Positions 50,726 through 57,648 of a stretch of DNA of 64,000 nucleotides are shown here, piece by piece (within the stretch, counting starts at the first letter, position 1; each line of letters starts with the position of its first letter). The stretch is from assembly GCF_007833275.1 (NCBI RefSeq), contig NZ_CP042241.1, positions 992,001-1,056,000 of the forward strand, given 5' to 3'. A program made the translations under genes and the position numbers. The notes under the pieces are model-generated. The model did no database searches, was not told the origin of the DNA, and saw only the letters and a program-made list of their open reading frames with translations. Origin of the DNA: Salarchaeum sp. JOR-1. GTDB lineage: Archaea > Halobacteriota > Halobacteria > Halobacteriales > Halobacteriaceae.

Positions 50726-50773
50726 ACCCCAGCAAAAGAGACTCACCGAAAAGGGCGTTTCGCGTCACCGACC

Positions 50774-51078
50774 ACAGGAGGGATTTGAACCACGCCCAGA
50801 CGGTCGCCCTTCGGGCGCTGCGTCTGGTCTACTTCAGAATCCCTCTACCGCATCGTTCTTCACTTCGTTCAGAAACGATGCGAGGGGAGGGATTTGAACC
50901 TCAGTCGTTCCGCTACGCTCCACTCTCTGCTTCAAATCCCTCTCTACGCAGTTATCCTCGTTTCACTCGGAAAACTGCGAGGGGAGGGATTTGAACTAAC
51001 GTCAGACTCACTCCGTTCGCCTGACTGAGTTCAAATCCCACGCTGTTCGCACCGCTCCTCACTGTCGTTCGTCGCAGG
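50774..51078. repeat. Tandem array of palindromic tRNA-3'-end-like units next to tRNA-Leu
   Basis: About 100-bp units each contain AGGGATTTGAAC, identical to the T-arm of the adjacent tRNA-Leu (complement), and an inverted partner: AGGGATT/AATCCCT (50779-50785/50838-50844, degenerate), AGGGATTTGAA/TTCAAATCCCT (50888-50898/50931-50941) and GGGATTTGAAC/GTTCAAATCCC (50986-50996/51029-51039). Units are joined by unrelated spacer hairpins: GCATCGTT/AACGATGC (50850-50881), CGCAGTT/AACTGCG (50947-50979), GCACC/GGTGC (51049-51081). The two inner copies also keep the acceptor end GCGAGGGGAGGG. No coding frame fits. Confidence 0.8.
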
Positions 51079-51163
51079 TGCGAGGGGAGGGATTTGAACC
51101 CACGAACCCCTTCGGGAGCGGATCTTAAGTCCGCCGCCTTTGGCCTGGCTCAGCCACCCTCGC
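51079..51163 (-). tRNA. tRNA-Leu (anticodon TAA)
   Basis: An 85-nt class II tRNA. Acceptor GCGAGGG pairs with CCCTCGC, D-arm GGCTGAGCCAGG, anticodon stem-loop GCGGA-CTTAAGA-TCCGC (TAA reads UUA/UUG), a long variable arm (TCCCGAAGGGG) and T-arm GTGGGTTCAAATCCC. Discriminator A. CCA is not encoded. Its 3' end borders a tandem array of palindromes that copy its T-arm and acceptor. Confidence 0.95.
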
Positions 51164-51635: not shown

Positions 51636-52082
51636 CGACTCGCCTTACTCGTCGTGAACGACGCCAGCGTGCGGCGCTGGCTGGCTCACGACTCGCCTTA
51701 CTCGTCGTGAACGACGCCAGCGTGCGGCGCTGGCTGGCTCACGACTCGCCTTACTCGTCGTGAACGACGCCAGCGTGCGGCGCTGGCTGGCTCACGACTC
51801 GCCTTACTCGTCGTGAACGACGCCAGCGTGCGGCGCTGGCTGGCTCACGACTCGCCTTACTCGTCGTGAACGACGCCAGCGTGCGGCGCTGGCTGGCTCA
51901 CGACTCGCCTTACTCGTCGTGAACGACGCCAGCGTGCGGCGCTGGCTGGCTCACGACTCGCCTTACTCGTCGTGAACGACGCCAGCGTGCGGCGCTGGCT
52001 GGCTCACGACTCGCCTTACTCGTCGTGAACGACGCCAGCGTGCGGCGCTGGCTGGCTCACGACTCGCCTTACTCGTCGTGAA
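51636..52082. repeat. 53-bp perfect tandem repeat, eight copies plus a partial
   Basis: The unit starts CGACTCGCCTTACTCGTCGT and recurs at 51636, 51689, 51742, 51795, 51848, 51901, 51954, 52007 and, cut short after 23 bp, at 52060. All full copies look identical. Each has the hairpin GCCAGCG-TGCGG-CGCTGGC. The partial last copy covers the stop and last codons of the cyclophilin gene, so the array seems to have grown from that gene's 3' end. The unit length is not a multiple of three and no protein is encoded. Confidence 0.95.
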
Positions 52083-57417: not shown

Positions 57418-57434
57418 CCGGCTGAGGACACGGA

Positions 57435-57574
57435 AGTGGGCCGCTGCGGCTGCTGAACTACCGCCAGACGACCCCGCTCGCCTCACCAGCTCGCGTGCGA
57501 CTGGCTGCGACTGCCTTCGTTCAACTCCGCACCGTACACTATTCGATCGCTCACGGTGTTCGCGACAGAAGCAG
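57435..57574. repeat. Degenerate tRNA-3'-end-like palindromic unit next to tRNA-Ile
   Basis: GTGGGCCGCTGCGG (57436-57449), then TGAAC (57454-57458), closely copies the 3' end of the adjacent tRNA-Ile (GTGGGCCGGTGCGG at 57574-57587, then TTTGAAC). An inverted T-arm partner, GTTCAACTCCGCACC, lies at 57519-57533. This is the same plan as the units beside tRNA-Leu, in one eroded copy. The rest of this gene-free stretch shows nothing else. Confidence 0.6.
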
Positions 57575-57648
57575 TGGGCCGGTGCGGATTTGAACCGCAA
57601 ACTTCCACCTTATCAGAGTGGCGCTCTACCTAATTGAGCTACCGGCCC
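57575..57648 (-). tRNA. tRNA-Ile (anticodon GAT)
   Basis: A 74-nt tRNA. Acceptor GGGCCGG with CCGGCCC, D-arm GCTCAATTAGGTAGAGC, anticodon stem-loop CCACT-CTGATAA-GGTGG (GAT reads AUC/AUU), T-arm TGCGGTTCAAATCCGCA, discriminator A. No intron, CCA not encoded. Confidence 0.95.

Follow-up and report, generated by a model that had tools for sequence, protein, structure and literature searches.

A tRNA-Leu(TAA) gene, reported both by ARAGORN and by Rfam (RF00005), occupies positions 51077-51163 on the minus strand of the window (the whole 64,000-bp stretch of Salarchaeum sp. JOR-1 DNA analysed here). Its 3′ end is followed by an array of three tandem palindromic units, flanked by genes for a DUF5813 protein and a cyclophilin-type isomerase. 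Read on the tRNA-sense strand, each unit opens with a hairpin (HP1) and closes with a direct copy of the tRNA 3′ end; between these lie an inverted copy of that end and then a second hairpin (HP2). The copied segment is the 3′ end of the tRNA gene at 51079-51099 (GTTCAAATCCCTCCCCTCGC corresponds to 51080-51099), and the units are 103, 97 and 109 bp long, measured from start to start of the direct copies. In unit 1, all of whose parts, like those of the other units, lie on the minus strand, HP1 (51042-51078) is of the type GCGAC-GA-AC-GACA-GT-GA-GGAGC, and is followed by an inverted T-arm copy, GTGGGATTTGAAC (about 51029-51041), an HP2 with the structure GTCAG-GC-GA-AC-GGA-GT-GA-GT-CTGAC (50997-51028), and a direct copy matching the tRNA at 20/20 positions (50977-50996). 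Unit 2 consists of HP1 (50943-50976), the inverted T-arm copy (about 50930-50942), HP2 (50900-50929), and a second 20/20 direct copy (50880-50899). Unit 3 has its HP1 at 50846-50879, a decayed inverted copy at about 50833-50845, its HP2 at 50791-50832, and a direct copy at 50771-50790 that matches at 16/20 positions and has lost its acceptor part. The inverted T-arm of the tRNA-Leu(TAA) units, read on the minus strand, is GGGATTTGAA.

A preliminary description of this locus had proposed three tandem palindromic units at the tRNA 3′ end, two of them retaining the acceptor end, and the placement of the direct and inverted copies bears out both points. The array strand (394 nt) also folds strongly (z = -7.2), with 0/100 shuffles folding equally well. 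The array, which had been placed beside the tRNA 3′ end, lies downstream of the tRNA on the minus strand; the span given for it took in the tRNA itself, and the spacer hairpin that had been called private to each unit is the recurrent element HP1. With Rfam, the tRNA is the only match in the array region at gathering score, the remainder being weak sub-threshold microRNA-type matches to the hairpin. Among the neighbouring ORFs tested, none adjoining the window units was found to encode an integrase or transposase, and the ORFs tested beside the array (DUF5813 and cyclophilin) gave no match to cas genes. A CRISPR array, with its invariant direct repeats, unique foreign spacers and cas genes, was considered and rejected: what lies between the direct copies is an inverted tRNA end together with hairpins, and HP2s are found again at other tRNAs.

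The second tRNA gene in the window, tRNA-Ile(GAT) at 57574-57648, has a single decayed unit behind it on the minus strand (57430-57573, with approximate ends), composed of an HP1 hairpin, the inverted T-arm GTGCGGAGTTGAAC, and a degenerate direct copy. We also note a perfect 53-bp tandem repeat of 8.4 copies at 51636-52082, 500 bp from the tRNA-Leu array, which includes the stop-codon end of the cyclophilin gene and hairpins, one of them of the GA-type motif described below; TRF does not report this repeat at the corresponding locus of a congener (L002).

Distribution behind tRNA genes

A copy was defined as any match to the last 20 nt of a tRNA with no more than 6/20 mismatches. By this definition, 15 of the 42 tRNAs in the genome are followed within 150 nt by a repeat of their own 3′ end, compared to 0/42 with one upstream (p = 1e-5), and chance is therefore excluded genome-wide. 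Three identical 72-bp units follow tRNA-Leu(TAG), and the full anatomy is also present behind Gly, Val, Thr, Ser, and Leu(CAA) tRNAs of the same genome. The search of other haloarchaeal genomes that the preliminary description had suggested finds the arrangement at many tRNAs in nearly all of the Halobacteria searched. A unit-core pattern (GGATTYGAA-N24-54-GTTCRAATCC) matches in 274 of 292 Halobacteria genomes, representing 73 of 77 genera, with 0 matches to the reversed pattern as a control in Halobacteria genomes; because the pattern is strict, genomes without a match may still hold units. Outside the Halobacteria, 1 of 242 genomes in a phylum-wide sample matched (G452), and this is a false positive, the sequence being read as a tRNA gene. 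Judged by these sequence matches, the array in the window is one example of a class-wide feature of the Halobacteria. The largest array seen is behind a tRNA-Gly(TCC) (L416, G011:C1:1876800-1880300), a long tandem array of near-identical 111-bp units.

In the four genomes that were read, 42 of the 43 pattern sites lie no more than 700 nt downstream of a same-strand tRNA. The 43rd site (L326, G008:C1:1220000-1223000) has a core matching tRNA-Arg(TCG) at 19/20 positions and is located beside the gene for a 371-aa tyrosine integrase. In genome G002 the same unit lies directly behind tRNA-Arg(TCG), whereas about 55 kb separate the two in G008, so a larger element has integrated between the tRNA and the unit. 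This element (L326 and L423) has an end repeat of about 13 bp, CCTGCAACGCCCA, at the end of the unit's core, and the G008 unit is older than the element and was displaced by it. The tRNA-Arg(TCG) of the window genome (L047) is followed by sequence very similar to the start of the G008 element, and a related element is therefore probably present there too.

Integration classically leaves direct repeats of a tRNA 3′ end behind it, a footprint that the units match, and the units could be read as attL/attR remnants left by repeated integration and internal deletion, with HP1 and HP2 as the remains of attP arms. The tRNA-targeting integrative elements reviewed together with archaeal tyrosine recombinases (PMC8371274) also duplicate the tRNA 3′ end, leave the tRNA intact, and have the same insertion edge, and the tyrosine-integrase element between tRNA-Arg(TCG) and a unit in G008, with its repeat of about 13 bp, fits this reading. 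However, the units are only 70-145 bp long and gene-free, they contain an inverted tRNA end and two conserved hairpins each, and in nearly every genus they stand behind tRNAs of many kinds, in tandem arrays; att remnants would account for the direct repeat but for neither the inverted arm nor the hairpins. There is no integrase beside the window units, the G008 unit was displaced, and units were found neither in phages nor as attP in viral contigs. We consider that integrative-element footprints are a very improbable source of the units. Nor do the repeats at tRNA-Leu(TAA) look like leftover pieces of one integrated element, a possibility raised in the preliminary description, as their neighbours are the DUF5813 and cyclophilin genes. 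Integrase matches number 13 in the window genome (G000), 6 in its congener G001, and 5 in G008; one of them is that located beside the displaced unit.

Searches of plasmids found none carrying the window units, and the lone haloarchaeal match is a copy of HP2 that lies within an array of tRNA genes on a plasmid. On the Haloarcula halophila plasmid NZ_CP119561.1 (L427 358-3493), 22 predicted tRNA genes are densely arranged upstream of a gene for a TROVE-domain protein, and in a tRNA-Cys-like gene among them (~2430-2570 of L427) hairpins resembling HP1 and HP2 are inserted where the T-stem meets the T-loop. In viral contigs, most matches to the unit pattern fall on the anticodon and T arms of tRNA genes of phages and were set aside; HP2-specific patterns gave 0 matches there, plus one chance match in coding sequence. 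One viral-labelled contig (IMGVR_UViG_3300000875_000004; L203 13744-13933) has at its end a haloarchaeal tRNA-Glu(TTC) with a typical unit behind it.

Anatomy of the units

The anatomy was examined in 213 units at 142 of 260 tRNAs, a set partly selected for having units. The units range from about 70 to 145 bp, with a median length of 114 bp, and 113 of the 213 direct copies reproduce the host tRNA without a mismatch. Base-by-base comparison places the duplicated segment at tRNA positions ~53-73, with identities of 0.91-1.00 and background levels on both sides, although the left edge can be placed only between 52 and 57 because this stretch is nearly invariant in tRNAs. Positions ~53-73 are reproduced in full in every unit, so the host tRNA stays whole. 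The arms also vary together with the tRNA: at position 57, the tRNA base and its partner in the inverted copy form A-T (116) and G-C (64) pairs, compared to A-C (6) and G-T (4), a total of 180 concordant and 10 discordant cases (p about 1e-38, uncorrected for relatedness). The acceptor part of the inverted copy fits its own tRNA better than other tRNAs, but weakly.

HP1 and HP2 have a common motif, in which a stem is followed by GA, two base pairs, a small loop, two further base pairs, GA, and the other side of the stem. Among non-redundant HP1s the scored motif is present in 52% on the tRNA-sense strand and in 0% on the opposite one, compared to 1.2% of shuffles; the corresponding values for HP2 are 27%, 0% and 0.6%. 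The stem pairs covary, and the outer pairs include all Watson-Crick types. Within 1.14 Mb of haloarchaeal sequence, 58 of the 114 motif hairpins lie no more than 600 nt downstream of a tRNA, which is 2% of the space, and none lie upstream of a tRNA or nearby on the opposite strand. This strong enrichment behind tRNAs argues against a genome-wide hairpin family independent of tRNAs, which we reject.

The restriction of structure and motif to the tRNA-sense strand would be expected if the units act as RNA, with the tRNA 3′ trailer transcribed through them and the hairpins functioning in tRNA 3′ processing, in termination, or as small RNAs. The strong folding is in keeping with this, and mismatches between the core and inverted core are somewhat richer in G.T than in A.C (122 vs 57). 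The hairpin stems nevertheless have little G.T excess (23 vs 15 and 10 vs 9), T-runs do not mark the array ends, and Rfam finds no family besides tRNA at gathering score. Moreover, about half or fewer of the tRNAs have units, congeners differ at most of them, and distal copies decay. The preliminary description had offered RNA hairpins cut during tRNA 3′ processing as an alternative to a mobile element. We regard an RNA-level explanation as improbable, and the fast turnover described below makes an essential RNA role unlikely.

Turnover between relatives

Tracing of the units tRNA by tRNA between the window genome (G000) and the congeneric species G001 reveals extensive differences. First, there are filled and empty sites with matching borders: tRNA-Arg(GCG) has one unit in G000 and none in G001, with the G000 sequence past the last core matching the G001 sequence past the tRNA, and the pattern is reversed at tRNA-Tyr and tRNA-Asn, where G001 is filled and G000 empty, again with matching borders. 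Secondly, units are replaced, as at tRNA-Thr(TGT), where each genome has one unit, the two being unlike each other although the downstream flanks are similar. Thirdly, hairpins are reassorted; at tRNA-Leu(TAA) the order in G000 is HP1a-2a, 1b-2b, 1c-2c, and in G001 it is HP1c-2d, 1b-2c, such that the HP1 of unit 3 in the window has a near-identical counterpart in the first G001 unit and the HP2 of unit 3 is joined in G001 to the HP1 of unit 2. Overall, 19 tRNAs have units in one or other genome; at nine the units are in one genome only, at five they are unrelated (similarity ≤0.42), at three they are partly similar (0.60-0.65), and at two they are conserved (0.89 and 0.93). In most of these pairs there is good alignment over the 300 bp upstream of the tRNA.

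Within one genome, HP2s that are 90-100% identical are found at different tRNAs with different acceptor ends, and the HP2 of unit 1 in the window is 97% identical to one behind tRNA-Leu(TAG). HP1 is rarely common to tRNAs with different acceptor ends. Identical tandem units are present in several genomes. The arrays are also polar, with the tRNA-proximal copy being the better match in 25-30 arrays and the distal copy in 3-4 (25 vs 3, p = 3e-5; 17 vs 3 for copies with ≤4 mismatches, p = 0.003), an effect that is weaker without decayed copies (p = 0.035 at ≤3 mismatches). At the level of genome comparison, we see a class-wide, tRNA-anchored, palindromic and modular repeat with fast turnover and with arms matched to each host tRNA, whose units appear and disappear between relatives, undergo tandem amplification, and trade their HP1 and HP2 modules.

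The main alternative to dedicated mobility is that these are ancient repeats, present at many tRNAs of a haloarchaeal ancestor and since reshuffled by homologous recombination alone, through unequal crossing-over of direct cores, gene conversion based on the T-loop, and transfer of whole loci between species. The direct cores, sometimes together with HP1, provide long direct repeats on which deletion and tandem duplication could readily act, the HP1b-HP2c combination of G001 is the expected product of a deletion between two inverted copies in the G000 order, and the pattern in which HP2, but rarely HP1, is common to different tRNAs also fits. Recombination thus explains losses, tandem changes, and some of the reassortment. 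It would, however, have to operate on T-loop homology of only about 10 bp around HP2, and units confined to one congener at 9/19 tRNAs would call for loss or transfer at a very high rate. The strand-specific hairpins with covarying stems need selection, which recombination alone does not supply, and on balance we think it unlikely as a full account.

Proposed mobility and related systems

We give a probability of about one half to the reading that the units belong to a family, class-wide in haloarchaea, of small palindromic DNA repeats that are non-autonomous and multiply where tRNA genes end, at the 3′ side, and we infer that their mobility proceeds through a folded single strand. When single-stranded, the tRNA-sense strand would fold into a dumbbell or hairpin, the core pairing with the inverted core and HP1 and HP2 forming the ends, and a putative trans-acting recombination or replication activity would work on the folded strand at the tRNA end. 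New units would be placed, or kept faithful, beside the tRNA, older units would drift outward and decay, and HP2 modules could spread between tRNAs via the nearly universal T-loop sequence (GGATTYGAA...GTTCRAATCC). The preliminary description had suggested a small palindromic element, mobile or amplifying, with the tRNA 3′ end serving as its recognition arm, and this is partly supported: the filled and empty sites with matching borders, the unit swaps, the tandem amplification, the near-identical HP2s at different tRNAs, and the arms that covary with the host tRNA all fit, but movement itself, whether as transposition or as a circular or single-stranded form, has not been observed. The filled and empty pairs could instead reflect recombination losses between direct copies, or whole-locus transfer between species, and the rarity of HP1 sharing leaves the first arrival at a new tRNA with matching arms unexplained by mobility.

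More speculatively, and in our judgement doubtfully, the units could represent a new kind of mobile DNA, dumbbell single-strand elements whose arms are re-templated from the tRNA gene that is entered, with snap-back or rolling-hairpin synthesis, primed at the 3′ end of the tRNA, as one conceivable route. With re-templated arms, one family could colonise every tRNA harmlessly, with arrays growing from the tRNA outward.

We found no description of such tRNA-end units in the open-access literature searched, and we know of no family with arms that copy and track a host gene; the units have the look of a type of very small mobile DNA not described before. In archaea, integrating DNA enters mainly at the 3′ ends of tRNA genes, and here a repeat family in nearly all searched Halobacteria occupies that entry point with arms co-varying with the host tRNA. 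This raises the questions of which enzyme recognises hairpins that combine tandem G.A pairs with GNA loops, by what means the arms come to match a new tRNA, and whether the arrays block, attract, or record integrating elements. The 3′ flanks of haloarchaeal tRNAs should not be taken as simple provirus scars.

By analogy, the units may work like REP, attC, or rolling-hairpin systems. REP/REPIN sequences, with their RAYT (Y1, HUH) transposases, are likewise short non-autonomous palindromes that form hairpins on one strand and occur as tandem or paired copies. However, REP/REPINs have a conserved palindrome that recurs in intergenic regions throughout the genome, whereas unit stems vary freely with only the GA/GNA motif in common, the arms copy the host tRNA end and vary by tRNA, and the sites are at tRNA 3′ ends only, with 42/43 behind tRNAs. 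A Y1 transposase (PF01797) has one match in G000, none in G001, and one in G008, and as all three genomes have units, which are many in G001, we rejected it as the mover. Integron attC sites and the attP of CTX phage are folded single-strand recombination sites, in which one strand of a palindrome forms the site; at attC a dedicated tyrosine recombinase acts on the folded strand. The units share strand-specific folding with attC, and cassette-like arrays with polarity, but unlike attC they are without cassette genes, their arms are tRNA sequence, and any recombinase acting on them is putative.

The MITEs and PATEs described in Haloquadratum (PMC3119063) are similarly small and non-autonomous with palindromic ends, and elements of this class have terminal repeats that match a parent transposon and a short target duplication. 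The units may differ from them, as no fixed terminal repeats are seen, the duplication of ~20 bp is always the tRNA 3′ end, and no parent transposon was identified. The nearest described case is in Methanopyrus, where a palindrome also sits behind archaeal tRNA genes, about half of them (PMC5217627), although it is a short, fixed motif of one species with no copy of the tRNA end and no units or arrays. Streptomyces telomere palindromes form single-stranded DNA hairpins with sheared G:A closure and GCA loops that are recognised by protein (PMC4513846), and the unit hairpins resemble them in their tandem G.A pairs and GNA loops, a likeness that weakly favours a single-stranded DNA form; the telomere palindromes, unlike the units, cap linear replicons and have no tRNA link. 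One HP2 also has a match on a linear Kitasatospora plasmid, close to the plasmid end (27 nt, 96%, E = 3e-3), a similarity that may be convergent. On this plasmid (NZ_CP108563.1; L428 1001-1027) the HP2-like sequence is located ~120 bp from the end, amid other purine-rich hairpins.
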